Positions 13,806-40,118 of a stretch of 64,000 bases of DNA are shown here, piece by piece. Position numbers and translations under genes: made by a program. Location of the stretch: assembly GCA_003249105.1 (NCBI GenBank), contig QBLT01000001.1:1-64000 (forward strand). The letters are read 5' to 3'. This stretch comes from Leptolyngbya sp. GTDB taxonomy: Bacteria > Cyanobacteriota > Cyanobacteriia > Phormidesmidales > Phormidesmidaceae. Within the stretch, counting starts at the first letter, position 1; each line of letters opens with the position of its first letter. The notes below the pieces were generated by a model. The model had not been told where the DNA came from. It made no database searches and worked only from the letters and a program-made list of their open reading frames with translations.

Positions 13806-13854
13806 ATCAACCAGCAAGGATTTGCGCTCAGACTATCCCTAATAACTGGCAATA

Positions 13855-16800
13855 ATGCAAGTTCTAATCAGCTATCCCTGGAAGATCAGCTACGCCAGCG
13901 ACACCAGCAACCCCGTCGCCGACTTCTACATCCCCGCCCTCGAACGCGCCACCCAGTACGATCGCAAATCCGGCTTCTTCAACAGCGCCATCCTCAGCCA
14001 GGTCGCCGGGGGACTGGGGGCCTTTCTCCAAAACGAGGGCCGCATCCGCCTGATCATGAGCTGCCACCTCAGCAAAACCGACCTTCAGGCCATCCAGCAG
14101 GGCTACACCCTCCGCGATGCCGTCGCCGCCCGCCTTGATGCCAACCTCACTCCACCCACCAACTTTGCCCAGCTCAAACGCCTCGAAATCCTTAGCTGGC
14201 TGATTCAGAGCGATCGCCTCGACATCCGTATCGCTATCCCCCTGCGCCACGATGGCCAACCCCTCGACCCCGACGAGGCCATCAACACCCACTACATCTA
14301 TCACGAGAAAGTCTGCCTCTTCACCGACGCCGACGGCAACCAGATCGCCACCACCGGTTCCAACAACGAGTCCAGCGGCGGCTGGAACTTCAACATCGAA
14401 TCGTTTCATGTCTTCTGCTCCTGGGAGGGCGATCGCGACCTGGCCCGCGTGCAGGAAGAAACGCTGCGGTTCGAGCAGCACTGGCATAACCAAATCCCCA
14501 GCGTCCGTGTGTTTGAAGTGCCCGACGCCGTTAAACGCAAGCTGATCCGCTACGCCCCACCCCAAAAGCCCCTCTGGAATACCGACGACGAATTCAACCA
14601 GCGCCCTCTCACCCGGCAGGAGCGTGAGCAGCTGGAAATACCTGACCCAGAGCCTGTTAAGGAAGAAGAGCCAGAGGCCCAGATCGATAAGGCCACCCTG
14701 GCGAGGGAACGGGAGATGTTTCGGGCGATCGCCAACATCCACCAAGACCCCGGCTGCCTCAGCGCCTGCCTCAGCTCCATCCCCATCCAGCCCTGGCCCC
14801 ACCAGATCAAAATCCTCAAACGGGCCGCCGCCGATTTTCCCCGCAGCTTTTTGATTGCCGATGAAGTAGGCCTGGGCAAAACCATCGAAACCGGGCTGAT
14901 CCTCCGCTACCTGCTGGTGTCCCAAAAGGTCAAGCGCGTCCTGGTGCTAGCCCCCGCCAGCGTTCAACCCCAGTGGCACGAAGAACTGCGCGAAAAGTTC
15001 AACCTCCACTTCTGGAGCTACACCCAGGGCGAGTTTAAAGATCCCTACGGCCAAACCACCCAGCCCACCGGCAACCCCTGGAATACTCAAACCCTGATCC
15101 TGGCCTCTAGCCACCTGGTGCGCCGTAAAGAGCGCATGCAAGAACTGCTCGATGCCGAACCCTGGGATCTGGTGGTGCTGGACGAGGCCCACCACGCCCG
15201 TCGCAAATCGCCCCAGGCCCGCAAAGACACCCCCAACCGCCTGCTGCAACTGCTGGAGCAGCTGCGCGACAAAACCAAGGCGCTGATTTTGCTCTCGGCC
15301 ACACCGATGCAAATTGACCCCATTGAGGTGTTCGACCTACTGCATGTGCTGGGGCTGGAGGGCCACTGGGCCTATGGCGATACCTTCTGCGACTACTTTG
15401 CGTCTCTGGACAGTAAGCCCGATCGCCACCTGCTGAACTTCTGGCAAACGATGTCTGCCGACTACTTTGCCCATGGCGGCCAGCCCTGTCCCCGGCTCCA
15501 GCAGCACCTCAGTCAGCAAGACCGCATGCTGGCCAGCCGAGTGGAAGATGCTTGGCGGGGGCGGCTGAAAATAACCATCAACGATCGCCTCTTCCTGCAA
15601 GATGAGGCCTTTCTCGCCGCCTCCCTGCAATTCCTCTCGACCAATACCCCCCTCAAAGACATGATGTTCCGCCACACGCGGGACACCCTGCGGGAGTACT
15701 ACCGCCTCGGCCTGCTAGAAAAAGACGTGCCCCGCCGCGAAGTGTGCGATAACGCCATCACCCTAGAACCCACCCGCGAAGCCGACCTCTACCGTCAGGT
15801 GAGCGACTACGTGCGCCACTTCTACCGCCTGGCCCAGAAAGAGCAGCGCAAAGCTCTGGGCTTCTTGATGACCCTGTACCGCAAGCGGTTGACCAGCTCC
15901 TTCTATGCCATTCAGCAATCCCTCCAGCGACGGCTCGACTCGCTAATTACCCAGCAGGGCAGCAGCCTCACCGCCGATGACCTCGCAGATCTAGACGATG
16001 CCGACGACGCGGTGATCGAGGGACTAGAGGGGTACATGGAGCCTGTAGACCCCAGAGAGATTGAGCACCTAGAAGCCCTGCTGCGACAGTTTGAGAACAC
16101 CGGAGAAGACACCAAGCTGGCCCACTTCATCGCCACCCTGCGGCAGGAGCTGGTGAACCGGGAAAGTGCGATCGCCTTCACCCAGTACACCGACACCATG
16201 GACTTCCTGCGGGAGCAGCTGCGAGGACTCTACGGCAGCCAGGTGGCCTGTTACTCCGGGCGCGGTGGCGAACTGTGGCGCGATGGCCAGTGGGCGATCG
16301 TGCCCAAGGAGCTGATCAAAACCCGGTTTCGCGATGGCGAGATCAAGATTCTGCTCTGTACCGAATCTGCCAGTGAGGGCCTCAACCTGCAAACCTGCGG
16401 GGTGCTGTTTAACTACGACCTACCCTGGAACCCCATGCGGGTAGAACAGCGCATTGGCCGCATCGACCGCATTGGCCAGCGTTACCCTACGGTCACCATC
16501 CACAACTTCTACTACGACGGCACGGTGGAAGCGAAGGTTTATCGGAAGTTGCGCGATCGCATTGGGGCCTTTGAATCTGTGGTCGGCAACCTCCAGCCCA
16601 TCCTGGCCCAGGTGCCCACCTTCATTGAGCGAGCCACCATGAGCGTCGATGCCGAGGAAGAAGACGTGCTGCTCTCTGAGTTTGATTCTGTCCTATCGGC
16701 TCCGCCCCAGCGGCCAGCCCTCGATGACATGGTAAAACGCGATGTGGAAACTGACCTCCAAGAAATTCGGCGACCGCTGCCTCCTACCGCCATTACTCCA

Positions 16801-17010
16801 GAGGTCGTGGAGGCAACGTTCACCCAGTCGAACCTTCTTAAAGCTAAAGGCATTCACTTTACCCAGGCCGATCAAGGCGTGTGGCAACTGGATTACCAGG
16901 GACAAACCTACCGGGTAACTTTCCAGCCAAAGGTCTTTGAAGAAACACCCTCTCTACAGCTATTGCTCTGGGGAGACCCCCTATTTGAAGAAATACTGAA
17001 AGTTGGGTAA
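13855..17010 (+). CDS. Phospholipase D-like + SNF2-family helicase, anti-phage locus protein
   Basis: 1051 aa; PLD-like N-terminus with 'YHEKVCLFTDADGNQIATTGSNNES'; SNF2 motifs 'LIADEVGLGKTIETGL', 'VVLDEAHHAR', 'RVEQRIGRIDRIGQ'. Confidence 0.88.
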   Translation: MQVLISYPWKISYASDTSNPVADFYIPALERATQYDRKSGFFNSAILSQVAGGLGAFLQNEGRIRLIMSCHLSKTDLQAIQQGYTLRDAVAARLDANLTPPTNFAQLKRLEILSWLIQSDRLDIRIAIPLRHDGQPLDPDEAINTHYIYHEKVCLFTDADGNQIATTGSNNESSGGWNFNIESFHVFCSWEGDRDLARVQEETLRFEQHWHNQIPSVRVFEVPDAVKRKLIRYAPPQKPLWNTDDEFNQRPLTRQEREQLEIPDPEPVKEEEPEAQIDKATLAREREMFRAIANIHQDPGCLSACLSSIPIQPWPHQIKILKRAAADFPRSFLIADEVGLGKTIETGLILRYLLVSQKVKRVLVLAPASVQPQWHEELREKFNLHFWSYTQGEFKDPYGQTTQPTGNPWNTQTLILASSHLVRRKERMQELLDAEPWDLVVLDEAHHARRKSPQARKDTPNRLLQLLEQLRDKTKALILLSATPMQIDPIEVFDLLHVLGLEGHWAYGDTFCDYFASLDSKPDRHLLNFWQTMSADYFAHGGQPCPRLQQHLSQQDRMLASRVEDAWRGRLKITINDRLFLQDEAFLAASLQFLSTNTPLKDMMFRHTRDTLREYYRLGLLEKDVPRREVCDNAITLEPTREADLYRQVSDYVRHFYRLAQKEQRKALGFLMTLYRKRLTSSFYAIQQSLQRRLDSLITQQGSSLTADDLADLDDADDAVIEGLEGYMEPVDPREIEHLEALLRQFENTGEDTKLAHFIATLRQELVNRESAIAFTQYTDTMDFLREQLRGLYGSQVACYSGRGGELWRDGQWAIVPKELIKTRFRDGEIKILLCTESASEGLNLQTCGVLFNYDLPWNPMRVEQRIGRIDRIGQRYPTVTIHNFYYDGTVEAKVYRKLRDRIGAFESVVGNLQPILAQVPTFIERATMSVDAEEEDVLLSEFDSVLSAPPQRPALDDMVKRDVETDLQEIRRPLPPTAITPEVVEATFTQSNLLKAKGIHFTQADQGVWQLDYQGQTYRVTFQPKVFEETPSLQLLLWGDPLFEEILKVG

Positions 17011-17204: not shown

Positions 17205-19040
17205 CTAAGCCTCAACCTGCTGAAACTGAGGTGATACATGGTGAGGTTGTTCTAGGAGTGCAGCAGCGGTGCGAAAATCTTTTAGTACGCTTTCAGACGG
17301 GCGACTGAACACAATGTCGGCCCCTTTAGCCTTCAGAACTGTCCGACCTTCTTGGGTCGCAATCAAAACCCCCTGGCTGGTCAAAACCACTGAGTTCCGT
17401 CTGCCCTGAACGGCAAATCCGCCAGCTTCATCTGGCTGACCAGCGCGCGACAAAATTAGTGAGCTCAGATTCAGCAATTCAACTGTCTCAGGACTATTGC
17501 TTTTAGCACCTCCAGCCCCCCGCCCTGTCGTTACGGATGGCCGTTGTTCTGCGGCATGAGTTGCCGCTGAAACTTCTAGCCCGGCATCCGCAAGAATTGC
17601 ATGTGGATCGCTTGGTTCTGACCGATTGAATAGGATCTTTTCTTCTTTGTAGGAAAAGATCATTCGATCATCTCTTGAAACACTTAATTTACCAGCTTTG
17701 TCTAGCTCTATTCCATACTTAGAGCCTGCATAAGAGAGAACAGAGCTATCGATTCCAACTTCACCTTTTTCGTGGAGAACTCGACTGGCGGCAAGCAGCA
17801 AATTATTTTTCACATTTACCGACTCTTCTATTGAGCGAGTTACGTTCCTTTCGAGATTCTTTTGGCCTGTCACAGGCTTGATTGTGCTAGGCGCTTTTTC
17901 GTCAAAGAGTGTGGGTGCCAGTTTTCGCAGTCGGGACCAGGGAAACTCATCGCCTCGGCACTCGCAGGATGGTCGAGCCGTATCTAGGGAAGCGCCATCC
18001 ATGATTCTATGAATGTGATCCTCATCAGCCCCGTGGGCCAGTCCCCCCTGGATCGTCAGCGCTTCAGCACTCTGCCCGCTCAGGGGGATACCATTCTCTC
18101 TGGCCCAGTTCTCCCAGCCAAATGCCTCTCGGGCCAATGACACGATCGCATAGGAGCGATCGCTATGCCCACCCCCACCGCCTGATAGAACGTCTCTAGC
18201 GCGGTCTGAGATCAGATCTGACAGGTCTACCGTCGAACTCCCTGGCAGCGTCTTTTTACGTCGTGGCCGAGCCTTGATAGGAATAGCCTCGCCAAGGGGA
18301 ATACCATGCTCAGAGTTTTTTGTTGCAGTCTGAGCCCCTGATTTAAATATCCCGATCGCTGAGAGGTCTGCGACGGCCACTGGAGCTGACACGAGATGCC
18401 TAGCCCGGTAGGCATTACCTGTGGGGCCAATGGTGGGAGCCAGTACACAAACCCTGCCGACCCCAAGCACCTCACCCACATGCAGACCACCGGGCTCTAG
18501 GGCAAAGTTGGTAAAGTCTTTAGGGTGTTCCAGTTGCACCATAAAATGCCACCCGCCCCGATGGGTCTGCTCTGCGTAGGTCTGCTTCAGGTGAGGATGG
18601 GTCTCAGCCCACGCTAAAACGGCGGCATCACAAGCGTCTTGAGAGCCAAAATTTTTAACATCGAAGTCAATGAACACGGTGCGCTCATTGCCCAGCGTGG
18701 CAATTCCATTCTGGGGGTTAGAAAACCAGGCTTCCAGCTCACTGGGCTCAGGCATTCTCGACTGAAAGTCCCGATGATTGACAGTGTGCGGATGGCCGTC
18801 GGCATCCAGGTAGCTAGGATTCTTACCGGTAAATCTAGAGACTGGGCAGAGCTTCCCATCAACTTCAACCAAGGGGATATGGCAATAAATCCCCTTGCTC
18901 GGGCGGTCAGGATTTACCTTGGGATACTGGTAAGCATCCTGCTCCGGTGCAATGGGGAGCGGCGGTAGGTTATTGTTCAACAACCAATTCGCAACATCCT
19001 GCACGGATGGCTGCTTTGGCCATGGCGATAATTCGTTCAT
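17205..19040 (-). CDS. PrimPol-type bifunctional DNA primase/polymerase (plasmid primase)
   Basis: 611 aa; 'NGIATLGNERTVFIDFDVKNF', 'EQTHRGGWHFMVQL', 'GLHVGEVLGVGRVCVLAPTIGPTGNAYRAR'. Confidence 0.75.
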   Translation of the reverse strand: MNELSPWPKQPSVQDVANWLLNNNLPPLPIAPEQDAYQYPKVNPDRPSKGIYCHIPLVEVDGKLCPVSRFTGKNPSYLDADGHPHTVNHRDFQSRMPEPSELEAWFSNPQNGIATLGNERTVFIDFDVKNFGSQDACDAAVLAWAETHPHLKQTYAEQTHRGGWHFMVQLEHPKDFTNFALEPGGLHVGEVLGVGRVCVLAPTIGPTGNAYRARHLVSAPVAVADLSAIGIFKSGAQTATKNSEHGIPLGEAIPIKARPRRKKTLPGSSTVDLSDLISDRARDVLSGGGGGHSDRSYAIVSLAREAFGWENWARENGIPLSGQSAEALTIQGGLAHGADEDHIHRIMDGASLDTARPSCECRGDEFPWSRLRKLAPTLFDEKAPSTIKPVTGQKNLERNVTRSIEESVNVKNNLLLAASRVLHEKGEVGIDSSVLSYAGSKYGIELDKAGKLSVSRDDRMIFSYKEEKILFNRSEPSDPHAILADAGLEVSAATHAAEQRPSVTTGRGAGGAKSNSPETVELLNLSSLILSRAGQPDEAGGFAVQGRRNSVVLTSQGVLIATQEGRTVLKAKGADIVFSRPSESVLKDFRTAAALLEQPHHVSPQFQQVEA

Positions 19041-19051: not shown

Positions 19052-22000
19052 CTACCTATCATGAACAGACGCTAGATTGTTTTGCTGGTTCTGAGTTTGT
19101 GCCGCCACGAACTGCCGAACCTTAGATACCTGGACACCGAACTTGTGGGCATCTTCAGCAGTCAATCCGTTACCGTGTAACGCCCTACTTCCCTTGGCTT
19201 TAAAGATTTCGCCTCGCTCTGTCGCTGAAACGGCGATCTCATCTCCCTGACTGAGAAGGGTATAGGTCTTGCCAGCAAAGACTTTTGAGCCATCGGGCTG
19301 ATCTTGGCCTAACTGAGATAACAGGTATTTAGACTGGGCCAAAACATTAGCGATCTGCTGAAGATGGGCCTTTTGGTCGTGCTGGCGCGTCATTCTATCT
19401 ACGTCGCCGTACGCCCCCTCATGCCCCGATTTGATCGCCTGGCCGATCTGCTCAATGCGACCCAGGTGCGACGGCGATCGCCCCAAGGCCCGCGCCTGGG
19501 AATACCATTCACGCAAATCTTTAAGCAGAGCTTGGCTTTGTACCGGCTCTGCTAGGGCAGCCGGTGACGCCTCAGACGGAGCATCGACGGAGGATTGCTC
19601 AGCGATAGGAATCGTAGGGGGCGAATCTACTCCACCGGGATCGGCCTGCCGCTCGGATGGCGTAGCACTTTGAATCGCGGGGTTGACCCCTGCATCCAGC
19701 GAGGTATAGAACTCCGCCATCAGTTGACCAACAGCACCCCTGATAGTCACGGGGTCGCCGTACTCATCGCCTAAGGCTTTGGTGGCGATGGTATTGGCCG
19801 CTCGCTCCATCCATTGAGCCCCAACCTCTGTACCACTCTCACGCACTACGGCCTTGGCATTTTGCATGGAGGCGTTGACCATGCCGAGCTCATCCTGGGA
19901 AAGCTGTAGTTCCCAAATCCGCTCCCCAGCCTCAAAGGTGAGTACAGCGCCACCACGTTCGAGCGCCTCAAGCCCAGGAGACCCCGTTGGCACCTCTACC
20001 GCCGGGGGAGTGGCAGATCCAGCAGCATCGTGAAACCGCTCTAGTTCGGCCTCGTAGACGCGCACGCCCCCATTCGCCTCAAAGCCGAGCTGCGGATGCA
20101 ACTCGGCCACAACCACGGTAATGCCCTCCTGAGTGAGGGTCGGAATAATCTGCTCTTGCAGGTCAGCGGTATTGACGCTTAAACCCTCGCAGTCGGGGTC
20201 AAGGCCCCACTGCATCGGTTGAGTGGGTCGCCCTACGCCATAGGCCGCGATCTGCGCATCCTCGGCATAAGACTCATAGGCCTGATCCACCCGAATAAAA
20301 GCAATATCCTCTGGGTAGTCGGCCTTGAGTTCAGCAAAACGCTTCAGGTGGGGATGGTGTGGTCCAGGGCCAAGATCGGGAAGCAATACCTCATCTACAT
20401 CGGTGGACGGGGCGGGCTGTGGCGACGGGCTGCTGACAGACGCATCCTGAGAGGATTGAGGGTACAAGGGTTGCACCACCAGCCCCAGCTCGTCGTAAAT
20501 ATCTTGGGCAGGCCGCATATTCGTGGTTCCTGCGGCCCCTACCAGGGTCGTATCCGGATTAACCTGCGGGTCGTGGGGTGATGCCAGGTCAGACTCTGAA
20601 GTGGCCTGCGTCACCCGTAATTCATCTGCCCAGGGCGACGATTGGCCCAGCCCATCTCGCTGAGCGATTTCGATGATGTAGTCTGCGGCTGGCCGCGCAA
20701 ATTCAGGGTGGAGGGTTTCCCCATCCTCGCTCGGGGCATTGATAATCTCCATTAGGCGATCCCGCAGGGCATCGACGCTGGGGGCACCGTCAATCGCTTC
20801 CCGCAGCTCCCAGACCTCTGCCGGGCTGAACTCAATTACCCCAGTGGTGCCCCCTAGCGCCGGGTCGTGGAATTTGAAGGTTGTCCAGTCGTCACCGATA
20901 AAGCCCAGCTGCTCACCGCTGGAAGATAGATCGACCAGTGGGGCGACCTCAGGCGGGGATATCGAGGCCCCTGCCAAGGCATCTCTCACCGCATCTTGCT
21001 GATAGGCATAGGGATCATTGTGGCCCTCCAACCATAAGAATCCCCGCTCACCGTCCTGATAGAGCATTTCGGGCGAGTCAGAAGCCAGTGCCTCAAATTC
21101 AGCCCGATCAAACGCATGAAACAGATCTGGACGCTGTTGGAATAGCGCCTCTATAGGACTCAAAGGCTCCAGAGATGGCCCATCAACATTGGCGATCGCA
21201 TCCTGGCCCAGCTGCGTCAGGTAAGCCTTTGAAATAGCACTACCAAATCCCTGCTCTAGCAAGTTTTGGGCAAATATCATGCCAAAGGCGCGATCGGAGG
21301 CACGCAGTTCGCCGCCATTAAACCCTTGCACCGCAGTCTCGACAAACTCTAGATGACCCTCAGGTTGAATGGTCAGCTTCATCTCAGTATCAACCCACAT
21401 ATCCCCGTTGCCGGTAGCGTAGTGGGTCAGATACAAATCACTGCCACCCACTCCATTGGGGTGCGATTCAACCACCAAATCCATGTAGGGTTCATTGGGC
21501 ACTCTGATGTGAAAATCATTGTCCCCATCGACCATAACCGCCTGCTGGAGCCCGCCCTGCTGGAGTAGCCGAGCAACGTTTTGGGCGATCGGGGTCGTTT
21601 GCCGCGACGGTGCCAGCACCTGGGGGCCACCCTCGTGGGACATCTCGCGCAGCCGCTGTCGGCCCGCCTGTTGCACAGCCTCATCCTGATGTTCCTGGGC
21701 CTGGGCGGTGATTGCCCCATCGAATGCCTCTACGACAACCTGGCGCATGGCCCCGGCAATACGTTCCTCCAGCTCAGGGCTGTCGGCGGCGAACTGTCCT
21801 AAGAAGGCAGAGTCCTCGTTGTCCATGGCAGCCTTGGCCATTTCCAGATCTAGGCCAGACTCCAGGTGATCGCTCAGACAACGGTAGGTGCGTCCTATCG
21901 CCTCAATCGCCCTATCTTGAGATATCTCGCCGCCCAGAGTCTCTACGGCCCGCTGCATCAAGACATCAGGGGTCGCACCGCTAGATGAGTCACCGAGATA

Positions 22001-25000
22001 CTCATGGAAGGCGATCGCCTCTGGGTGCAGGGGTTGCCCGTCAATCTGTAGCACCCCACCTCTGACCAGGGTTTCAAAGGTCAGCGCGGGCGGCGGTGGC
22101 TCGTAGAGGTCGAATTCAGCCTTGAGGTCGGCCAGGTTGCTGCCGGAGTACAGGCGATCAGAAAGGTTGTTCATGACGGCAAAGCGGCTGGGGGCCGACT
22201 CACCTTCTGGTTCAGGAATTAAGCCAGGGTTGCGCTCTAGCTCGGCACGTAAAACGGGGTGAATAGCTCGGCTCTGAGCGGCAGCTTCAATGCTAGTGTC
22301 TTTCGGCAACCAAGATGTAGCAGTCTCCCATCCGGATCGTTCGCCACCGGTTGCAGCCGCAGCCTCATCCAAGTGGGAGGTTGCTTTGATGCCATAGCGA
22401 TTTGTGATGTGGGCGAGTACTTTATCCTGCGCATCAACATCCTCGATCACGAGGCGCATCACCTTTTGCTCAACAGTGCGTCCTGGCTTATCGCCTTCCA
22501 CTCGACGGGTTGCCGAGACAAATTCACCGTCAGCCAGGTCAAGCAATTCCCGGTTTTGATAAAACTTTTTCCCCTCTGCACTCGCGGGAGCCGTCAAAAG
22601 AAGAGCACCACGCAATGAGAATTCACAGTCCAGCACGCCACCTCGATCGGTGAACGTGGCAGATCGAGCGGTAGCGTCAAGGAACTCCTTCAAGTGGTCA
22701 GGGCGTTGAATGGAGATAGGGCGGTTATCAATTTCTCCAGCGTCGATTCCTTTCGACAGCAGGTAGGCCGGGTGATAATCGCCCTGGTTGTCCTGCATTA
22801 GGGCAAATCGGCCCATCAGCTCTGACTTGAGCACCTGGCCAACGACCAACATGCGATGCTCACGGGAGGACGACTGCTTTTCGTCGAAGACGCTATAGGT
22901 CGGCACTTCGGTGTATTGCTGCAACACTTGGCCCGGCTGAGCCCTGAACACGAAGGAATCTTCTTGGGGTTTGAGGGCAACAGCACGGCCAATTTCGCTA
23001 AATTTGACCGACAGTTCTTTGGCCTCATCAGCCAAGGCAATCTTGAAACGCCATGACCCAGGGTTGATGGGGTTAGCGGCATTTTGCTGGCGAGCCACTC
23101 CAACAATCACCCCTGGTATCGCCCGGTTGTTATCCAGGGATGCCAACTGCACTGGAGCACCAAGGGGAAACTCCCTCAGCTTCCCAAGCACTCCATTTTG
23201 CTGGGCCGACAGAATCGCGACGCCCTGGTCGCGGTCTTTCTCAGCGCCAGAAACCTTTACCTTGGCTTTGGCTACCCGCTCACTTTGTTTTTTGGAATTT
23301 TCTTCAGTTTTCTTTAGTTGTTTTCGGAGTTCAGCCCGCTGCCCCTCAAATTGAGCCTCAAGCTCAGCCTCTCGCTCCGGTGACGCGTCAGCTGACTGCT
23401 GAAGGTCTTCTAGGGCAGCGGTGAAGAGAGGCGCAACGTGTTCCAGTTCCGTCGTCAGCTCATCGCGCCGATCTTTCAATTCATCGAGGCGTTCATTCGC
23501 ATCGCTCAGCCGCTTCTGAGCATTGGACACAACCTCAGTAAATTGCTCCGTCTTGGTCGTCCGGAAGGCGTCTCCCTCTGACTGAACCTGGGCGACGAGT
23601 TCTTGAGAACGCTGATGACCCAACTGGCGCATGGGGCCATCAACGCTCAAATCCAAACCGTCCAAACTCTCTGGCCTAGGCTGGTCTAGGGCATCACAAA
23701 CTGACTGCGCCACCTGCAATGTGGTGTAGGGCTTTCCTCCGGTCTTAGCATCGACCTCTAGCGCATAGACAGGCTGCCGGAACGGGTTACCCCCATCACC
23801 GCCCTGGAGCATCTTGCGACGCAAGGGGATCGCATCGATGTCAATTTTTTGGGCATCTAAGTCCCACTGCCCCATGGCTTCTAGTCGATCTTTGATGCCG
23901 TTGTACTCAGAGATCAACAGGTCATAGACCTCACCCTGAAGGGCCAGGGATGGATGGGGGGCCTCGGGGGTCGGCGGCTGATCACTGGATAGAATAGCCA
24001 CCCGCCCGGTCAGCTTGCGCACATCGCCAAAGCTAACATCCCCATCTTTATCGGGGGGGCTACAGGGATAGTCGAGGGTTTGGTTGACCTCGGGCATTGC
24101 TGCCATGGCGTTGGCCGCCGCCTGGTCGCCATACTTATTCAAAAAGTCGGGCACATCGGCCCCCGAAAACTGGCTTTCGCCTGTGCCTGCGGTGTTGGAC
24201 TTGAGCCCCCGCATTTTGTTCATCAAAACGGCCATCGCCCTGGCCTCGGTGGGCAGCCCTTCCCCATAGACGAGCTTGAACATGGGCAGGCCAAACTCAC
24301 CGGCCTGCTGCCCCCACTGGGGATTACCCTCAGGGTCGGTGCCGGTGGCCGGGTGTACCTCCGGGTCGAGCTGCCCGCTGCGGTGAGTGCGCCCGATTGA
24401 CTGCTCACACTGGTTCACATCGGGGTGAGCCTGAAGAATCAGCATCGAGCGGCGTCTGAGGTCTGTGGCCCCATTAATCGCAGCATGGAGTGAGTAGCCG
24501 GTGGTCAGGTTGGTGATCACCGCATCGACGGTGCCATTCTGGAACCCGGCGATCGTCGCGACCTTGGCGGCAGCCCCGGCCTTGCGGGTCTGGTAAGTTG
24601 ACACAAATTGCCCGTCTTCGGTCGGTTGGTACTCCAGCCGCTGGCTCCGTCCGGTCATTTCTACTGCGTTGTAGCCCGCCTGCCGAATGCGGGCCTCCAT
24701 GTAGGCAATGGGGTCAGCGGGTAGCCCCGTCCAGTCGCTGGACTCGATCGCCGTCAGCACCTGGTTATAGATCTCGACCCCCCGCTCACCCAGTTCGTCG
24801 TCCGTGAGGTAGTGGGGCAGGATGACTTTACCGCCGCCCTCATCCTCGTGGGCACCGACAATCCGAATCGTTCGAGCGGCGTCGAGGTATCGCTTGAAGT
24901 ATTCTCCCGCCGTAATGTCAAAGGCATCGCCCGGCTTGAGGATAGACCGCTGATCGTCGGGAAAGAGGGCATTACGGGTTTCGATGCTTCCATTGGTCAG

Positions 25001-27916
25001 CTTCACCAGGTCTTTGAGCACCGACTCCCCGGTGCGCTGAAGCATAATCACGGGCTTGCGCCCGGCCTCTAGCTCTGCGATCGCCAGATCTGCGGTAGCT
25101 TCAGCCTTGAGGGCGATCGCACAGATAGCCCCCAGGTTATGCACCACCGAGGTAAAGGTCGTTGACTCAACTCCGGCATAGCCTACGTGATTGTCATGGC
25201 GAAATAAGGCTTCGCCAGTTTCGGCCATCCGTTCGTCAAGCTCTTCGAGCAGCCCCTGCTTGTACTCATCAAAGCGGTTGATGGCTGCCATCAGCTGAAT
25301 GTTGGCCTCCGCTCGATCGAGGCTAACGGCCACCGGGGCTGGGCTGAAGTCAACGCCGGAGTAGTCTTTTTGAAAGCGAATGCACCCGCCAGCCTCTGAC
25401 CAGAGCCCAAAGGCCATTTGCTGCATGGCGGCACCGCCTGACTGGAGGTGTCCGGCAAAGGTCTTTTGGTCCTCTGCGGCATCTTTGAAATCAGTGGTGT
25501 GGTAGAACAGCCGGGCGGCCACCACCGGCTCTTTGATCGCCGTTGCGGAGCTGGCGACAAACCCGCCCACTCGCTGGGTGAGATCTTGAAAAAACTCGGT
25601 CACCGGGGCGATAAACTTGCCAGCAGCCATCTTCTTGGCCCTGGCCGCTTCCTCATAGCTGCTGATTTCAAATTCTCCAGCGGGACCACCGGCCTTGTGG
25701 GACTCGTCGGCAATCAAAAACAGGTTGGGAGCCAGCGCCTCAAACAATGCCCGTCGATCTTTGCTGGCTAGGCCCTGGAGCTGCCCGTAGGTACTCATCA
25801 GCAGGTTGTGGTCGCCAATGGTGCCTAGCTCGGTAAACCGGCGGACATTAACCCCATTTTTTTTAGGGGTTTCAATCCGCCCAATCAGTTCGCCCTGGCT
25901 GTCTTCGACCCGCACACTGAGGCCATTGTCAGTAATGAAGGGGCGAAACTGGTTGCCGGTGTCTGGCCCATCCCGGTAGACCAGGTCTTTGTAGAGGGTG
26001 GGGTCAGCGGTCACTACCGCAGGCGTTAACCCCTGGTTTTGGGCGTAGCGACAGAGGCCCGCCACGATCCGGGTTTTGCCAATGCCCGTATCGTGGCCGA
26101 CAACCGTGGCCTGCTGCTTGTACTCGTGGTTGTAGATGGCCAGAGCCAGAGTGTCGATCTGCTCTGCCGCATAGTGGCTATAGAGGGAGTCGAGATCGGG
26201 CTCCTGCAAGCGGTCTTGGACGTAGGCATCGACCCCCAGCCCCGTGGTCGCCTCAATGCGGTCGAACACGTTGCCGTAGGCGGTGATGGCTGAGGCGGGG
26301 GCCAATACTCCCAGGGAGTAGCCCTGCGATCGCGGCCTATAGGGCAGGGTGACGGCATCATCCTGAGGTTGCTGGAGGATATCCTCCTCGGTATTGGCTT
26401 GAGCTACCATCGGGAGTCCTCCATCAGCAGGGCTTGCAGGTTGTTCAGCCAGTCGATTAGGTTCCAGCTGTCGGTGATCATCTCCAGGGTGTCGGTCGCC
26501 ATCGCCTGGGGCAGTACTGGAAACTCGTCCACCCCTTGGGGAAACAGCAATTCCCGCAGGGGGGCGTAATCCAAATTCAGCAGGCGGGCCAGCGGGCTCA
26601 CGGTCCCCGGCATCCAGTGGGCCTCCGGTAGCACTGAGTTGATCAGTTGATTGGCTAGGGCGATCGCCTGGCTGAGGGCCATCCCCTCCGCCTGCCTGTC
26701 CAGGAGGAATTGGGACAGTTTCACTTCCAGCAACCAGAGCAGGCGGGCGCGGTAATCCTCCAGGGTCATCAACGGCGAGTTGGGGGGTACCGGCACTGTC
26801 GTCCACCAGGTTCCTGCCTCTGCCTGGGCCATGGCTGGCCACCGGGTCGGCGTCCAAACTTGAACCGGCTCGTCGGGGTGCTCCAGGGCGTAGCTCACCG
26901 GGAGGGGAGAGTTCCAGATACTTTGCGTCATAGGTTCTAGCGGCATGGATTACTACCTCTCGGAGATCGTCGTATCGGTCATAGATGCGGGGGGCTTGGG
27001 CTCCAGGGAGTCTCAGGTCGGTGGAGCCTTGGCCCGCGATGGAGATAAAGTCGATGGGGAACCCGGCTCCCTGCCGTCGGAACATCGAGCCGTTCAGGGT
27101 GAAGTGATCGTCAACCTTCCAGCCGCTCTGCTGGTAGAGGAAGGAGTAGAAACTGCGGTCGGCCTGCCCCCGGTAGGCCGATTGGCGGGCGCTGGCATTG
27201 CCCATGTGCCCACCGATGATGAGTAACGCCCTGCCCTCTGGGGAAAGCCCCTGTAAGGCCTGGAGTGCGATTGCATGGTCGATCTTCTGGGTGCTGACGG
27301 GGCCATGCTGCCAGCGCTGAGGTGGGCCGGTACCGTTCTCGCGCAGCAGGCCAAAGGGGGGATTGCTGACTAGTACGTCATAGGGGCGATCCGGGCGGTA
27401 CTGGGTGGCGTCGTGTTCGGTGACCGTAAACCCTTGCGATCTCAGCTGAGCGGCGCGGGGAGGATGGAGCTCGTTGGCGATCGCCTGAGCCGGGTCGGCC
27501 AGCAGCAGCAGAGAGCCATTGCCTGCCGTGGGTTCGTAGACGGTCACTGAGGGATGCACCTGGGCGATCAGCCCTGCCACAAAGGCCATGGGCAACGGGG
27601 TAGAGTAGGCCTGCCGGGCCATGCTGTCAGAGGTTCTAACCAGCAGGTTGGGCTGAGCCTCATAGAGCGACAGCAGGTCGTCGAAGGCCAGCAGGTGATC
27701 GCCATCGGATTGCGCCACTATCTGCCGGGCTACCTTCACCAGACCTGACTCAATCGCCTCATCTACCTCCTTGGCCAGCATGGTCGAGGGCTCGACGGGC
27801 ACCCCCAGAACATTCGCCGCGAACGCCCTGGCCTCGACGATGTTTTTGAAGGCATGGCCCGCCCTAAAGTGTTCGCCGTAGGCGTGGGTCAGCTCAATTT
27901 GATCGTTGACATCCAT
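19052..27916 (-). CDS. Giant DarB-like protein: N-terminal N6-DNA methyltransferase fused to strawberry-notch-like helicase
   Basis: 2954-aa ORF; MTase motifs 'VYEPTAGNGSLLLLADP' and 'YDVLVSNPPFGLL'; helicase 'HDTGIGKTRIVAGLCRYAQ', 'LIADESHKAGG', 'NQCEQSIGRTHRSGQ'. A possible separate start for the helicase part is ATG 26410. Confidence 0.8.
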   Translation of the reverse strand: MDVNDQIELTHAYGEHFRAGHAFKNIVEARAFAANVLGVPVEPSTMLAKEVDEAIESGLVKVARQIVAQSDGDHLLAFDDLLSLYEAQPNLLVRTSDSMARQAYSTPLPMAFVAGLIAQVHPSVTVYEPTAGNGSLLLLADPAQAIANELHPPRAAQLRSQGFTVTEHDATQYRPDRPYDVLVSNPPFGLLRENGTGPPQRWQHGPVSTQKIDHAIALQALQGLSPEGRALLIIGGHMGNASARQSAYRGQADRSFYSFLYQQSGWKVDDHFTLNGSMFRRQGAGFPIDFISIAGQGSTDLRLPGAQAPRIYDRYDDLREVVIHAARTYDAKYLELSPPGELRPGAPRRAGSSLDADPVASHGPGRGRNLVDDSAGTPQLAVDDPGGLPRPPALVAGSETVPIPPGQAGGGDGPQPGDRPSQSTDQLSATGGPLDAGDREPAGPPAEFGLRPPAGIAVSPRGGRVSSTAPGDGDRHPGDDHRQLEPNRLAEQPASPADGGLPMVAQANTEEDILQQPQDDAVTLPYRPRSQGYSLGVLAPASAITAYGNVFDRIEATTGLGVDAYVQDRLQEPDLDSLYSHYAAEQIDTLALAIYNHEYKQQATVVGHDTGIGKTRIVAGLCRYAQNQGLTPAVVTADPTLYKDLVYRDGPDTGNQFRPFITDNGLSVRVEDSQGELIGRIETPKKNGVNVRRFTELGTIGDHNLLMSTYGQLQGLASKDRRALFEALAPNLFLIADESHKAGGPAGEFEISSYEEAARAKKMAAGKFIAPVTEFFQDLTQRVGGFVASSATAIKEPVVAARLFYHTTDFKDAAEDQKTFAGHLQSGGAAMQQMAFGLWSEAGGCIRFQKDYSGVDFSPAPVAVSLDRAEANIQLMAAINRFDEYKQGLLEELDERMAETGEALFRHDNHVGYAGVESTTFTSVVHNLGAICAIALKAEATADLAIAELEAGRKPVIMLQRTGESVLKDLVKLTNGSIETRNALFPDDQRSILKPGDAFDITAGEYFKRYLDAARTIRIVGAHEDEGGGKVILPHYLTDDELGERGVEIYNQVLTAIESSDWTGLPADPIAYMEARIRQAGYNAVEMTGRSQRLEYQPTEDGQFVSTYQTRKAGAAAKVATIAGFQNGTVDAVITNLTTGYSLHAAINGATDLRRRSMLILQAHPDVNQCEQSIGRTHRSGQLDPEVHPATGTDPEGNPQWGQQAGEFGLPMFKLVYGEGLPTEARAMAVLMNKMRGLKSNTAGTGESQFSGADVPDFLNKYGDQAAANAMAAMPEVNQTLDYPCSPPDKDGDVSFGDVRKLTGRVAILSSDQPPTPEAPHPSLALQGEVYDLLISEYNGIKDRLEAMGQWDLDAQKIDIDAIPLRRKMLQGGDGGNPFRQPVYALEVDAKTGGKPYTTLQVAQSVCDALDQPRPESLDGLDLSVDGPMRQLGHQRSQELVAQVQSEGDAFRTTKTEQFTEVVSNAQKRLSDANERLDELKDRRDELTTELEHVAPLFTAALEDLQQSADASPEREAELEAQFEGQRAELRKQLKKTEENSKKQSERVAKAKVKVSGAEKDRDQGVAILSAQQNGVLGKLREFPLGAPVQLASLDNNRAIPGVIVGVARQQNAANPINPGSWRFKIALADEAKELSVKFSEIGRAVALKPQEDSFVFRAQPGQVLQQYTEVPTYSVFDEKQSSSREHRMLVVGQVLKSELMGRFALMQDNQGDYHPAYLLSKGIDAGEIDNRPISIQRPDHLKEFLDATARSATFTDRGGVLDCEFSLRGALLLTAPASAEGKKFYQNRELLDLADGEFVSATRRVEGDKPGRTVEQKVMRLVIEDVDAQDKVLAHITNRYGIKATSHLDEAAAATGGERSGWETATSWLPKDTSIEAAAQSRAIHPVLRAELERNPGLIPEPEGESAPSRFAVMNNLSDRLYSGSNLADLKAEFDLYEPPPPALTFETLVRGGVLQIDGQPLHPEAIAFHEYLGDSSSGATPDVLMQRAVETLGGEISQDRAIEAIGRTYRCLSDHLESGLDLEMAKAAMDNEDSAFLGQFAADSPELEERIAGAMRQVVVEAFDGAITAQAQEHQDEAVQQAGRQRLREMSHEGGPQVLAPSRQTTPIAQNVARLLQQGGLQQAVMVDGDNDFHIRVPNEPYMDLVVESHPNGVGGSDLYLTHYATGNGDMWVDTEMKLTIQPEGHLEFVETAVQGFNGGELRASDRAFGMIFAQNLLEQGFGSAISKAYLTQLGQDAIANVDGPSLEPLSPIEALFQQRPDLFHAFDRAEFEALASDSPEMLYQDGERGFLWLEGHNDPYAYQQDAVRDALAGASISPPEVAPLVDLSSSGEQLGFIGDDWTTFKFHDPALGGTTGVIEFSPAEVWELREAIDGAPSVDALRDRLMEIINAPSEDGETLHPEFARPAADYIIEIAQRDGLGQSSPWADELRVTQATSESDLASPHDPQVNPDTTLVGAAGTTNMRPAQDIYDELGLVVQPLYPQSSQDASVSSPSPQPAPSTDVDEVLLPDLGPGPHHPHLKRFAELKADYPEDIAFIRVDQAYESYAEDAQIAAYGVGRPTQPMQWGLDPDCEGLSVNTADLQEQIIPTLTQEGITVVVAELHPQLGFEANGGVRVYEAELERFHDAAGSATPPAVEVPTGSPGLEALERGGAVLTFEAGERIWELQLSQDELGMVNASMQNAKAVVRESGTEVGAQWMERAANTIATKALGDEYGDPVTIRGAVGQLMAEFYTSLDAGVNPAIQSATPSERQADPGGVDSPPTIPIAEQSSVDAPSEASPAALAEPVQSQALLKDLREWYSQARALGRSPSHLGRIEQIGQAIKSGHEGAYGDVDRMTRQHDQKAHLQQIANVLAQSKYLLSQLGQDQPDGSKVFAGKTYTLLSQGDEIAVSATERGEIFKAKGSRALHGNGLTAEDAHKFGVQVSKVRQFVAAQTQNQQNNLASVHDR
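26404..26946 (-). CDS. 180-aa ORF in an alternate frame inside the giant ORF
   Basis: Protein-like, Trp/Leu-rich sequence (MTQSIWNSPLPVSYALEHPDEPVQVWTPTRW...LMEDSRW). Its stop overlaps a candidate helicase start as ATGGTAG (26410-26404). The host frame here is G/P/R/D-rich. Confidence 0.6.
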   Translation of the reverse strand: MPLEPMTQSIWNSPLPVSYALEHPDEPVQVWTPTRWPAMAQAEAGTWWTTVPVPPNSPLMTLEDYRARLLWLLEVKLSQFLLDRQAEGMALSQAIALANQLINSVLPEAHWMPGTVSPLARLLNLDYAPLRELLFPQGVDEFPVLPQAMATDTLEMITDSWNLIDWLNNLQALLMEDSRW

Positions 27917-32061: not shown

Positions 32062-32796
32062 CTACTTATTTTTACTTAGTAGTTTTTTTAAGTTTGAAAT
32101 TAGGGCAACATCCGTCTGGTCAGGCCTAATGTGCCATACTTCAGACAACTGGAGCGTAGCTTTTTGAACATCCCAGGGCATTATACTTTTGCGATTTAAC
32201 TTTGCGAACGGACCATCTGTTTCAGTAAGCACTCTATCTTTAGGCATTTCCCTAATTAAGGACTTCCCTTTTTCTGTGGCAAGCATTGCTGGACCTACCG
32301 AAAACCAACATCCCATAGAAATAGCGCGCTTAAGTTGTGTTTTTGTTCCAGTAAACCAGTGCAAGATTGGAGTACCTGCATCTTCGTAATTAGCTAGGCA
32401 GTCAAGCACTGAATCAACAGCACCTCGACTGTGAATAGACATGATACGACCACCAGATTTTTCTACCGTACTTAGAATATGATTAAAAACTTTAGTTTGA
32501 ACCTCCTTGTATTTGGCGTATTTCTTACTACCATCTAATCCTATTTCTCCAACATATTTTGTTTGTGATATTAGTTCATCAAATAGCTCAACCTCATGAT
32601 ATCGTTCGTGAGCTAACTGAGGATGCAGCCCTAAAGATGTTTTGATACGCTCACAGTCTTGTACTAATGTTTTAGTGCCATGCCATGCTTTTGGGGTAGT
32701 TGTCACCGAAAGAATATAAAAATTTTGCAATTTACACTGTAGAACAACTTTTTGAGGATCTTTGTATAAGTCGAGATGGCAGTGCATGTCGATCAT
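32062..32796 (-). CDS. qatD: QatD, TatD-like DNase
   Basis: 'MIDMHCHLDLYKDP', 'TSLGLHPQLAHE', 'VGEIGLDGS', 'MSIHSRGA', 'LTETDGPF'; 3' end of the qat operon. Confidence 0.85.
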   Translation of the reverse strand: MIDMHCHLDLYKDPQKVVLQCKLQNFYILSVTTTPKAWHGTKTLVQDCERIKTSLGLHPQLAHERYHEVELFDELISQTKYVGEIGLDGSKKYAKYKEVQTKVFNHILSTVEKSGGRIMSIHSRGAVDSVLDCLANYEDAGTPILHWFTGTKTQLKRAISMGCWFSVGPAMLATEKGKSLIREMPKDRVLTETDGPFAKLNRKSIMPWDVQKATLQLSEVWHIRPDQTDVALISNLKKLLSKNK

Positions 32797-34121
32797 TAAA
32801 TGATTCCCTTGCTGTACAAAAACTGTTCTACTTCTCTTATTCCACGCACGAAAACTTCTTTGTATTTATCTCGTATTTCCGCATCATAAGAAAGCGAACC
32901 ATTATCCGATATCCAATCAAAAATATTTGCGCTTGACAACTTTTGAATTGCAATTATTAGAGCAAATAGGTCATCACGGCTTCCAGGATCTCGCATAGTT
33001 ATAGCTAGATCCTGATGCTCATATGAGATTAACTCAGGAATGCCTGAAGTCATAAGTGCGGCCCGTCTAATAATACATGGAACACACTTACCGCATTGCT
33101 GGCGTTTACGTTTCCATTTACTGCAAGATACGGTGCTAGATACGATTCCCTTCAAGATATTTTGATTCTTACATTCTCTTAACATTTCACCTTTTGTTTT
33201 AAATTGATAAGGATTAAAAATAGTCACTTTAATTCCTACGGCGTCAAATATTGACTGCATCAAATCAAAGAAATATGGATGCGTGGTTCGAGTACTCAAA
33301 GAACCTATGCGTCTTGCTGTCAAGGGTGGATTGAGCGAAATAAATCCATTTTCTGGGATAAAAAAATTAACACTGTCCAAATCACTGGCTCGAGATAAAG
33401 CAGATGCTCCAACAACACCAAAAGCCAGAAAATTTAGGCTTCGTGTACGCATAGTTATATCTGTTTTACCATTAATTGATAGTGGGTTAGCGTTCACCGA
33501 GAAACGAGAGAATCTTCCGATTAGTTTTCGAATAATCTTGTCTTGGTAAGATTTATCTCCTTTATAAGCATGGCTTACTAAAAGTGGAATATGACCATCT
33601 TCTATGAAGTTAATTACCCCAATTGCACTATCAAGACCACCAGAAAATAAACTAATACAGTTTCTTTCACGCAGAGGAGTCAAGCGGTATCTTTGACGGC
33701 GAGTATATGGATTTGGCGGTGCATATCCGCCAGCTTTGATCTCAAGATTCCATAAGTCACCACTTAGGAAGTGTAGCGCTTTTTCAAGTGTTTCCTTCTG
33801 ACTTTGCCAAACCGTAGGTTGATGCAAAGAAACTTGCAGCTTGATATCTCTTGTCCAACCATCAGCAGATGTCTTTCTTTGAACAAAGGTGTCTGCTGCA
33901 GTAACTGCTAATGCAATAGTCATAAAATCAAATTCAGCAGAGGAAATACGAATTCCTAGCCTTTTGACTGGATCAAGTAAAGAATTGCCAATAGCCGCCA
34001 TATTTCCTTGCTGCCTTCCATCCAGTCCATAAATCTGTACTGGAATTACATCGTCTGACCATTGTGGAAGAGCGCTCAGTTTATGATCTACAGCTACCGT
34101 TATCATAAGTATGACTCCCAT
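32796..34121 (-). CDS. qatC: QatC, QueC-like
   Basis: 'NCISLFSGGLDSAIGVINFIEDG' PP-loop; Cys-rich 'CSKWKRKRQQCGKCVPCIIRRAAL'; adjacent to qatD and qatB. Confidence 0.88.
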   Translation of the reverse strand: MGVILMITVAVDHKLSALPQWSDDVIPVQIYGLDGRQQGNMAAIGNSLLDPVKRLGIRISSAEFDFMTIALAVTAADTFVQRKTSADGWTRDIKLQVSLHQPTVWQSQKETLEKALHFLSGDLWNLEIKAGGYAPPNPYTRRQRYRLTPLRERNCISLFSGGLDSAIGVINFIEDGHIPLLVSHAYKGDKSYQDKIIRKLIGRFSRFSVNANPLSINGKTDITMRTRSLNFLAFGVVGASALSRASDLDSVNFFIPENGFISLNPPLTARRIGSLSTRTTHPYFFDLMQSIFDAVGIKVTIFNPYQFKTKGEMLRECKNQNILKGIVSSTVSCSKWKRKRQQCGKCVPCIIRRAALMTSGIPELISYEHQDLAITMRDPGSRDDLFALIIAIQKLSSANIFDWISDNGSLSYDAEIRDKYKEVFVRGIREVEQFLYSKGII

Positions 34122-34858
34122 TCTGACCAGACAGCGCTTATAACTGAACGTTGTAGGTTAATTATCTGACTGTTAGTAAGTGTTCTCATATTTTCCGAAA
34201 ATAAGGGAGCCATATATAGGTCAACCTCTACTTTAATTAGCTCCATTAACGAGTTTTCTGCTGCAATAGACTGGCTTGGTGTTTCTGCCTTAATCCATGC
34301 TTTACCGGCATCTTGAACCACCTGAAGGAAGATACTTTCTGCCATATAAGCAATCATCGTATTAACAATGATTTCATCAGTAATTGAAGTAGGATCAAAA
34401 ATACTTACCCCATCTAGAGCCTCTACAAGAGCGTGTTTCAGTGCAATTCTAATTTTGTCAGAATCACCGCCTATAGGAGTGAGGGATTGAGTAATGGTAT
34501 CAATTGCCTGTTCGCATGGCATTCCTGTGAGAGAACCCACATCAAGTACTAAGTCTCCTGCCCCAGTTCCTCTACCACTGGCCAGCGCGCTATATAGTGC
34601 AGCACCTGCTTTTGTTGTGTTGCCTAACCGTCTAGTTGCGGTATCACTACCTCCAGTACCTTTCCTGGCGTAGTGTCCCAGGGCAGACTTTAGAGCAGAC
34701 TGGTTGCTAGTCCTAACAAATTCACCAAATGATCGTCGGAAGGGTTGAAAGCGTGATGACGGTGAACTCGGTAAAGGGACTTGTGGCTGATCATCTGCCC
34801 AAGGCGGAACAAGAGGAGATCCACCTCCAGGTCCAGGACTTGACTGTGATGTCCCCAC
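34103..34858 (-). CDS. qatB: QatB
   Basis: Characteristic N-terminus 'MGTSQSSPGPGGGSPLVPPWADD...RRSFGEFVRTSNQSALKSALGHYARKGTGG'; between qatA and qatC. Confidence 0.85.
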   Translation of the reverse strand: MGTSQSSPGPGGGSPLVPPWADDQPQVPLPSSPSSRFQPFRRSFGEFVRTSNQSALKSALGHYARKGTGGSDTATRRLGNTTKAGAALYSALASGRGTGAGDLVLDVGSLTGMPCEQAIDTITQSLTPIGGDSDKIRIALKHALVEALDGVSIFDPTSITDEIIVNTMIAYMAESIFLQVVQDAGKAWIKAETPSQSIAAENSLMELIKVEVDLYMAPLFSENMRTLTNSQIINLQRSVISAVWSEWESYL

Positions 34859-34860
34859 AA

Positions 34861-36696
34861 TTATGATTCCTTATACCACTCTTGACTTTTTAACAGAGCT
34901 TTCAGCCAGGGCTGTTGTTCACCGAGCCCCCGAATATATCGACGTAGTAAACTTGCCGCATCTGCGGAAGACTGGGCTAATAGACACCCTCCTTCAAAGC
35001 CTTCAGGCTTTTTATTCCAATCAGACACTTGTCTGAAATGATTGATAAGTTCCTCCATGACAGGAACTTGCTCTTCTACCAATAAAGAAGATAAAACTTT
35101 TTGCGCTCCAGGAGAAGATAAAGTTTTTGTCTGTGAAAGCACCTGTAAAGCTGTACGAGCGTTAGGAGATAATCCTACTATATAAATGCCCATGGGCAGA
35201 GTTTCCCTAGATAAGTAAACTGCCGCTCTCAAATCTATATCTTGTAATTCAGGCTTCAGTTTACTCCACATCATGATAAAGTCGGAATTTTTCGTCCAAC
35301 TCTCTGGACAGTTCGAAGGAAGCTGTTCTCCTTTCAAGTTTTCAAGATCTCTAAGTATTTTTGGTTTTCCTAATTCACTGTCAATGAATCGGTAAAGCTC
35401 TGATGTTGCGTCTGCGCCAGCACAGCGCTCAAATATCACTAATTTAGTAATCAAGCTTTCATCCAAAGGAATTCCTCGCCGCTTTGCAACATTAGTTCGC
35501 ATCTTAACTACGTTGAGCAAACGTTTAACAATACGAGGATTACCTTTAATACTTGGAGAAGTAGCTAAAATAGGAGCGATCCGATCAGTCAGGCTAAATG
35601 CTTCGATCAATCCCTCATTTTCCTTTGCATTAATTAGCTCTAATAGCTTGCTTGTCTCAATTAGATTTTCTCTCCAAGATTGCTGTAATGATCGCTCCAA
35701 TTCAAGTCGAAGTTTTCCTAAATCAACTTCATTAATACCATTTTGAAGAGCGAGCAACATAAATAGATATGCTCTAATCTCACGGACTCCTGCTTTAGGA
35801 ACCCGAATAGGGATCTGAATAAGCTTATCAATATAGTCAATCTGGTGGCGATCGCTTGTACCCTTGAAATAATCTGCGACTGCACCCCTGATCATGTCTT
35901 CATCAGCCGCTATGATAAATGCGGTATTTGGAAGAAACAGAAATAAACGTATAGCCTCCAGTGTATGAATGGCGTTAGATGGCAAACACCTATCGAGGTT
36001 GTCAATAATAACAACTAGTGGACGCTTAAGCTCAGCCAACACCTCACTATACTCTTTCCGAAAAGCAGCAATCTGTTGAGGTGGTGTAATCTTGGGAGTA
36101 CCTTTTAAGAGTTCTGTTACAGCATCTTTTCCATCTTGGGCTTCTTTTGCTAAATCTTGGTAATCCTCCTGAGTAATTTGAGATTCTCCAGATGCTGCCT
36201 CAAGAAGCTTTTGACTTGAACTGATTCCTCTTGCAAGTAAACCTCCTGTGGGTACTCCATTTAGCAAAGCAAAGCCTTCGGCAGCCCAGCCTAAAGCACG
36301 AAATACATTAATGCGGCCTAGCAGTCCTTTCGTCTTCTTTAGTAAATTTTCATTACCCTTAGCTGCTTCATTTAACTCTGTAGCAATAATCTCAAGAATT
36401 GATATACGTGCATCATCATAACCTTGATACAACCAGGCATCAAAATTTACAGTTATATATTTTTCGTCTTTTCCATCCGAGTCCTTTAATTCTTTTAGAT
36501 CTTTCTCAACAAGCTTGAGGAGAGAAGACTTTCCCGCTCCCCAATTACCAAAAATACCTATCGATATTGGGAGCATTCCTGGTGAAGTCAATATATCAAC
36601 TGTCATCTTAGAAACTTCTCCAAAATTCAAATAATCAATTTCTGATTCTCTATCCGCCCACATAAAATCTTCCTGAATTAATAAATTTAAAAGCAA
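34861..36696 (-). CDS. qatA: QatA, KAP-family P-loop ATPase
   Basis: 'ISIGIFGNWGAGKSSLLKLVEKDLKEL', 'KRPLVVIIDNLDRCLPSNAIHTLEAIRLFLFLPNTAFIIAADEDMI'. Confidence 0.88.
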   Translation of the reverse strand: MLLNLLIQEDFMWADRESEIDYLNFGEVSKMTVDILTSPGMLPISIGIFGNWGAGKSSLLKLVEKDLKELKDSDGKDEKYITVNFDAWLYQGYDDARISILEIIATELNEAAKGNENLLKKTKGLLGRINVFRALGWAAEGFALLNGVPTGGLLARGISSSQKLLEAASGESQITQEDYQDLAKEAQDGKDAVTELLKGTPKITPPQQIAAFRKEYSEVLAELKRPLVVIIDNLDRCLPSNAIHTLEAIRLFLFLPNTAFIIAADEDMIRGAVADYFKGTSDRHQIDYIDKLIQIPIRVPKAGVREIRAYLFMLLALQNGINEVDLGKLRLELERSLQQSWRENLIETSKLLELINAKENEGLIEAFSLTDRIAPILATSPSIKGNPRIVKRLLNVVKMRTNVAKRRGIPLDESLITKLVIFERCAGADATSELYRFIDSELGKPKILRDLENLKGEQLPSNCPESWTKNSDFIMMWSKLKPELQDIDLRAAVYLSRETLPMGIYIVGLSPNARTALQVLSQTKTLSSPGAQKVLSSLLVEEQVPVMEELINHFRQVSDWNKKPEGFEGGCLLAQSSADAASLLRRYIRGLGEQQPWLKALLKSQEWYKES

Positions 36697-38017: not shown

Positions 38018-38018
38018 A

Positions 38019-40108: not shown

Positions 40109-40118
40109 ACTGGGCTAC

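Follow-up and report, generated by a model that had tools for sequence, protein, structure and literature searches.

Background and the locus

In the Rz/Rz1 spanin genes of lambdoid phages, one gene lies entirely within the +1 frame of another gene on the same strand, with a start of its own and with both products being functional. Here we describe a candidate for a comparable arrangement, termed ORF180, which is located in a 64,000-nucleotide (nt) stretch of DNA from the cyanobacterium Leptolyngbya sp. (GenBank assembly GCA_003249105.1, contig QBLT01000001.1, positions 1 to 64,000), hereafter called the window. This open reading frame (ORF) likewise sits inside a gene of the same strand, shifted to the +1 frame, and carries its own start signal. 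However, its host is a giant fusion of two enzymes, and the shared DNA encodes the linker between them. ORF180 also differs from the spanins in not being a lysis protein, in lacking a known fold, and in occurring in plasmids as well as phages.

The host protein itself resembles the methylase-helicase dyad of polyvalent proteins, whose archetype is DarB of phage P1 and for which an anti-restriction role has been described (Iyer et al. 2017; PMC5512222). Such dyads are known from phages and conjugative elements and are thought to shield transferred DNA from restriction (PMC5512222). As in those proteins, an adenine methyltransferase carries a superfamily 2 (SF2) helicase fused at its C-terminal side, and the fusions occur in phages and conjugative elements. 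In that study, however, Strawberry-notch-like helicases appear just “in a few instances,” and the word “overlapping” is absent from the main text (PMC5512222). Inspection of the alternative frames of P1 DarB revealed no recognizable ORF180 homologue, and no published nested gene at this junction was found among the open-access papers searched.

A further parallel is offered by viral overprinted genes (for a review, see PMC8227390). There, one stretch of DNA yields two proteins, one of which is of low complexity. In the present case it is instead the small nested product that appears to be folded and constrained, and stand-alone homologues of it exist. Long same-strand nested genes of bacteria rarely have comparative backing, whereas ORF180 can be examined in about 90 loci. 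From this comparison we conclude, with high confidence, that ORF180 is a genuine, old, and fully embedded same-strand overlapping gene of a methyltransferase-linker-helicase host.

ORF180 and its host reading frame

The following features define the arrangement in the window:

19052–27916, minus strand: host ORF, 2954 amino acids (aa), with adenine methyltransferase, hydrophilic linker of ~180 aa, Strawberry-notch-type SF2 helicase, DUF6908, and a C-terminal part
26947–27916, minus strand: methyltransferase part, host aa 1–323, from Pfam and PHROG matches
26404–26946, minus strand: ORF180, putative nested gene of 180 aa, read +1 relative to the host ORF, from the sequence; acidic family with the conserved pattern W-x-P ... 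FP ... L-x-x-W(L/V)
26405–26946, minus strand: host-frame linker, approximately host aa 324–504, on the same DNA as ORF180; hydrophilic, with amino acids apparently unconstrained and the frame apparently kept stop-free by selection
19052–26410, minus strand: helicase part, readable from the sequence as a separate gene from an ATG at 26410 that overlaps the ORF180 stop

An initial annotation, made from the window sequence alone, had pointed to a 180-codon ORF at 26404–26946 inside a giant methyltransferase-helicase ORF, ending in an ATGGTAG overlap with a plausible helicase start. Both statements agree with the coordinates. ORF180 runs on the minus strand from the ATG at 26946 to the TAG ending at 26404, and this stop codon (26406–26404) overlaps the host-frame ATG at 26410. 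Three explanations had been offered for this arrangement, namely a real overlapping gene, a stop loss that joined separate genes, and a frameshift product. The first of these is upheld by the results below, and the other two are disfavored.

No other open run in the +1 frame of the host gene is as long as ORF180, at 181 codons compared with 125 for the next longest; the +2 frame reaches at most 88. When the window ORF180 is recoded with synonymous codons, the host frame stays open in 0.02% of trials. Recoding of the host linker instead leaves the +1 frame open in about 3.9–5% of trials, and the window ORF180 by itself is just mildly unusual as an open frame. This latter value lends something to the notion of a compositional artefact, in which a GC-rich gene casts a long open shadow frame. 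We consider an artefact scarcely credible given that the place, frame, start signal, and protein pattern recur in many diverged loci, that constraint lies in the ORF180 frame rather than in the host frame, and that a confidently predicted phage fold and stand-alone homologues exist.

Homologues in cyanobacteria

A first survey searched 195 relatives for ORF180 and recovered it from four other genomes of the genus (74–93% identical) and from a single genome each of the family (45%) and the class (29%). Both frames are open in each of these homologues. A second survey used the N-terminus of the helicase against 391 genomes of the class, 54 of which were positive, and 40 more junctions were fetched. 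The helicases at these junctions are mostly just 31–40% identical to that of the window. Nearly all of the junctions join a methyltransferase to the helicase via ~170 hydrophilic residues, and the +1 frame of this linker holds an ORF of ~140–180 aa with W-x-P near its start, FP, and L-x-x-W-L at its end.

The window's own genome contains a second locus with ORF180 plus helicase at the same spacing (G000:C368:41343-42565). At another locus (L014, G109:C149), a stop breaks the helicase frame soon after the junction and another frame opens, reflecting either a frameshift or an assembly error.

The host frame lacks stop codons in fused loci

We recoded ORF180 with synonymous codons and counted host-frame stops; a stricter variant shuffles just the synonymous codons that ORF180 itself uses. 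The 40 cyanobacterial loci have no host-frame stop inside ORF180 compared with 319 expected (154 with the stricter shuffle), and their third frame carries 6–19 stops per locus. Likewise, no stop is present in 47 viral (phage) loci (388 expected, or 71 with the stricter shuffle), in four fused cyanobacterial plasmids (27 expected), or in four other plasmids and phages (27 expected).

An internal control is provided by five unfused loci where ORF180 is an ordinary gene directly before the helicase and no methyltransferase was found among the scanned upstream proteins. Here, 60 stops are observed versus 52–60 expected. As judged from these comparisons, the host frame is held open by selection in fused loci, and the doubly open arrangement in the ~90 homologous loci is far beyond chance.

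The stop-free fused frame is common to all 40 methyltransferase-fronted cyanobacterial loci and to all scored phage loci, so the proposal that a lost stop codon recently joined separate genes is not sustained. A chance open frame, a recent stop loss, and an assembly error were each considered and rejected, since the host frame is stop-free across homologous loci.

The same counts bear on the possibility that three separate genes adjoin, with the methyltransferase frame stop-free by chance and the fused protein either not made or unimportant. Such a view would fit the separate annotation of ORF180 and helicase in Gloeobacter pGMOR1 and Pseudomonas aeruginosa pNY5530-NR1, as well as the good Shine-Dalgarno (SD) sequence with host-frame ATG that begins the helicase in relatives of the window and in 15 of 40 cyanobacterial loci. 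It does not account for the complete lack of stops where 319 and 388 are expected while unfused relatives have the expected number, nor for viral loci that have no separate helicase start near the junction. We therefore regard it as very unlikely.

Amino acid constraint lies in the ORF180 frame

The initial annotation had proposed an analysis of substitutions by codon position across homologues, and this analysis places amino acid constraint solely in the ORF180 frame. When the five genomes from the genus are compared, the flanks carry substitutions at host third positions, as is usual, and those in the overlap fall mostly at ORF180 third positions. Amino acid changes in ORF180 are below neutral placement in all 10 pairs (12 versus 27 expected for the closest pair). 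Host-frame changes are near or above the neutral number in most pairs (33 versus 25 for the closest pair), but they never create a stop. This pattern indicates purifying selection on ORF180 amino acids between close relatives.

Among all 780 cyanobacterial pairs, ORF180 is more similar than the host linker in 718. This is the opposite of the outcome that had been named as evidence against a nested gene, in which homologues would conserve the host linker but not the 180-aa frame. Both frames thus appear to be maintained by evolution, as is characteristic of an embedded overlapping gene. Because constraint sits in the ORF180 frame while the host frame never gains a stop, the wording of the linker seems to be nearly free, with mainly its readability being selected.

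Start signals and mode of translation

Three short elements around the two junctions are relevant to how the products may be translated:

26956–26961, minus strand: SD-like GAGAGG, 9 nt before the ORF180 ATG and within methyltransferase codons, from the sequence
26950–26955, minus strand: +1-frame stops TAG TAA, one codon before the ORF180 ATG, from the sequence; these weigh against a frameshift product
26418–26422, minus strand: GGAGG, 7 nt before the host-frame ATG at 26410, a possible independent helicase start, from the sequence

ORF180 therefore carries a start signal of its own at the sequence level, as do most of its homologues. A strong SD sequence located ~9 nt from the nested ATG is written in the last conserved codons of the methyltransferase. 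At Lys-Glu sites before the nested start, AAG-GAG is used in 22 of 25 cases compared with 5.4 expected from codon usage (P about 3e-13, with relatedness ignored). Duplex energies of −7 kcal/mol or lower are found for 85% of cyanobacterial and 78% of phage and plasmid nested starts, versus 6% and 3% of other upstream ATGs, although the cyanobacterial start was taken as the ATG with the best SD sequence in a search interval, a choice that somewhat favors the count of strong SD sequences.

A nested ORF that begins at the end of the methyltransferase region, and that is always +1 relative to the host, could also be the tail of a methyltransferase product made by programmed frameshifting. However, a +1-frame stop stands directly before the nested ATG in 34 of the 50 scored phage and plasmid loci and close before it in most others, and homologues occur as ordinary separate genes. 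The preceding stops, which in the window are TAG TAA, together with the strong SD sequence imply internal initiation rather than frameshifting. We consider a frameshift product highly improbable, and the signals point to independent initiation of ORF180 inside the host gene.

The situation for the helicase differs among elements. Thirty-six of the 40 cyanobacterial loci have a host-frame ATG near the helicase, and 15 of these have a strong SD sequence. No host-frame ATG is found near the junction in any of the 44 viral loci, and thus the viral helicase is presumably made solely via the fused frame.

Phages and other plasmids

The window ORF180 protein had no match among viral contigs, and a phage-type nested protein had none in the phage collection. 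A tblastn search of the plasmid collection with the window protein was likewise negative, and diverged relatives there were found later via the helicase. A total of 80 IMG/VR contigs were fetched by helicase match, and ~50 of these carry the ORF180 family as detected with a hidden Markov model, in every case in the +1 frame. Most phage members end ~41 nt before the helicase, mostly within host ORFs that are open for >1000 codons upstream. The cyanobacterial and phage ORF180 profiles align with each other (hhalign probability 98.6, E 8e-16), and a more diverged set of short nested ORFs can be aligned with the phage family across 69 columns (probability 94.8, E 5.5e-8). Nested +1 ORFs alike by position and frame are present at the same place in Bacteroides phage BS-TP4, a Thalassospira plasmid, and two Pseudomonas plasmids.

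Existing annotations are inconsistent and mostly lack one of the two overlapping genes. The fused gene alone is annotated in pAQ6 (Picosynechococcus PCC 7002), Chroococcidiopsis, Leptolyngbya NIES-3755, and P. koreensis. In Gloeobacter pGMOR1 and P. aeruginosa pNY5530-NR1, ORF180 and the helicase are annotated and the methyltransferase frame is missing. This absence carries little weight, because the plasmid gene table describes itself as incomplete. Both plasmids have a gene call for the nested ORF (L148:3495-3944 and L156:3339-3842, respectively), and for pNY5530-NR1 an opposite-strand ORF is listed over it in place of the unlisted fused methyltransferase frame.

The ORF180 protein and its association with the helicase

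ORF180 has no significant match in Pfam, PHROGs, NCBIfam, PADLOC, PDB, or BFVD. The only matches are weak ones, to NCBIfam (E 0.0027, far below cutoff) and to one single-member PHROG (E 0.003). A phage homologue of 131 aa (L117) is predicted with a predicted local distance difference test (pLDDT) score of 93.7 and a predicted template modeling (pTM) score of 0.88, and its model is mostly helical with short strands. Neither this model nor that of the window protein has a significant PDB match, and the phage model has none in BFVD.

When 390 genomes of the class were searched with a profile, 58 proved to carry ORF180. At 79 of 85 places, it lies 24–139 nt upstream of a helicase match; the phase is that of the fusion at 75 of these and a different one at 4, which equals the number of unfused loci known in those genomes. 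Four helicase matches have no ORF180 on the contig, and at least three of them are at a contig edge. Because ORF180 adjoins the helicase even where no methyltransferase was found, we infer a functional link between the two, with ORF180 perhaps serving as a helicase partner.

Four of the stand-alone ORF180-like genes (L164, L165, L166, and L167) encode ~188–215 aa with a shared N-terminal extension and have no helicase nearby. In L164 and L165, the ORF180-like gene is followed by one that by eye appears to be Dps-like.

A helicase tree places the unfused loci as one group (Shimodaira-Hasegawa-like approximate likelihood ratio test, 99) within the fused-and-nested loci, as the sister of the window's group (95); it is a quick tree of 237 columns with an uncertain root, and the states of some viral rows were set by eye. 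Fusion was probably lost in the unfused group. The unfused state as the ancestral one was considered and is disfavored, as the tree places these loci inside the fused ones. A tentative history, to which we give somewhat less than even weight, is that the enzymes were fused across a pre-existing third gene whose shadow frame became the stop-free linker, and that this arrangement was kept in cyanobacteria, bacterial plasmids, and phages.

A model for dual coding

In our model, one mRNA would encode both the giant methyltransferase-linker-helicase protein and ORF180. The latter would be initiated in the cell at its own SD sequence and ATG at the end of the methyltransferase region and be read in the +1 frame. 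Ribosomes in the host frame would read the same DNA as a hydrophilic and probably disordered linker whose amino acids hardly matter, and selection would act against stops in this frame and so hold both enzymes in a single polypeptide. The helicase may also be made alone from a second internal start in cyanobacterial elements, the window among them. ORF180 might then act as a small acidic helicase partner that binds, loads, or restrains the enzyme and is produced alongside it from one and the same transcript, possibly with a role in anti-restriction or DNA transfer. Of these steps, dual coding, the internal start signal, and the association with the helicase are supported by the sequence comparisons.

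ORF180 could instead be an independent effector of early transfer, such as an anti-restriction protein of the acidic DNA-mimic type. Its proteins are indeed acidic (mean net charge −12 for cyanobacterial and −9.6 for viral members), and the class of the host protein has been linked to anti-restriction (PMC5512222). Against this stand the near-fixed position beside the helicase, even where the methyltransferase is missing, and the lack of a sequence or fold match to any known protein. An independent effector is thus the less likely role, albeit one that deserves consideration.

Several observations weigh against the interpretation of ORF180 as a nested gene and helicase partner. Six ORF180-like genes stand without a helicase, and hence the partnership is not absolute. 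A nested gene is absent from the dyads of Bordetella, Xanthomonas, Achromobacter, Vogesella, and Acinetobacter, and is hence not essential to every dyad. The model of the window protein is only of moderate quality (pLDDT 67.7, pTM 0.60), being limited by a shallow and distant alignment, with a similar order of elements to the phage model. Finally, the scored loci share ancestry, with some phage contigs being almost identical copies, such that counts and P-values are indicative rather than exact.

If the interpretation is correct, ORF180 would extend a widespread class of anti-restriction-type proteins by a protein family that lacks annotation. The overlap would also account for annotations in which either the methyltransferase half or the nested gene is missing. 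Beyond the number of loci, the case adds an internal control in the unfused relatives with stops, a start signal, and a confidently predicted phage fold. It would also offer a natural system for gauging how much the sequence of a linker matters when mainly its readability is selected.

Domains of the host protein and genomic setting

Within the methyltransferase part, phage methyltransferase PHROGs match host aa 97–244 (E 1.8e-8), and a PF02384-like N6_Mtase match at aa 175–234 falls slightly under the curated cutoff. N-terminal to the methyltransferase, the place of the LPD36 domain in a dyad, the libraries used gave no match, with no search by name for the LPD36 model. Helicase matches span aa 590–1185 in one frame with the methyltransferase, which is the composition of a methylase-helicase dyad. 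They include a Strawberry notch C-terminal helicase domain (PF13871, Helicase_C_4) at aa 1081–1185 (E 2.8e-8, above the curated cutoff), and plasmid homologues are annotated as strawberry notch proteins. One further domain is located downstream:

21245–21583, minus strand: DUF6908 domain of the host protein (PF21849, aa 2112–2224, E 1.9e-16)

A protein with a Prim-Pol domain (17205–19040, minus strand) starts 11 bases beyond the point where the host ORF ends. The window also encodes a TraG/TrwB coupling protein (38231–40108) and an FtsK/HerA-type ATPase (47485–50352), which place the host gene in the company expected of a phage or conjugative element; both lie in the region 37022–50352 (minus strand), and the window is probably part of a conjugative element.

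Other neighbors appear to be related to defense. A TatD-like DNase, a QueC-like protein, a 251-aa ORF, and a KAP-family NTPase stand in a row at 32062–36696 (minus strand), which we take to resemble the QatABCD anti-phage system. At 7888–9645 (minus strand), a DarT ADP-ribosyltransferase (Pfam E 1e-63) adjoins a macro-domain protein, forming a DarTG-type toxin-antitoxin pair. Around it, at 1207–17010 (plus strand), are DUF499, DUF4365, a DUF1156 methylase, a DUF559 nuclease-like protein, and an SNF2 helicase, which together probably constitute a defense cassette.

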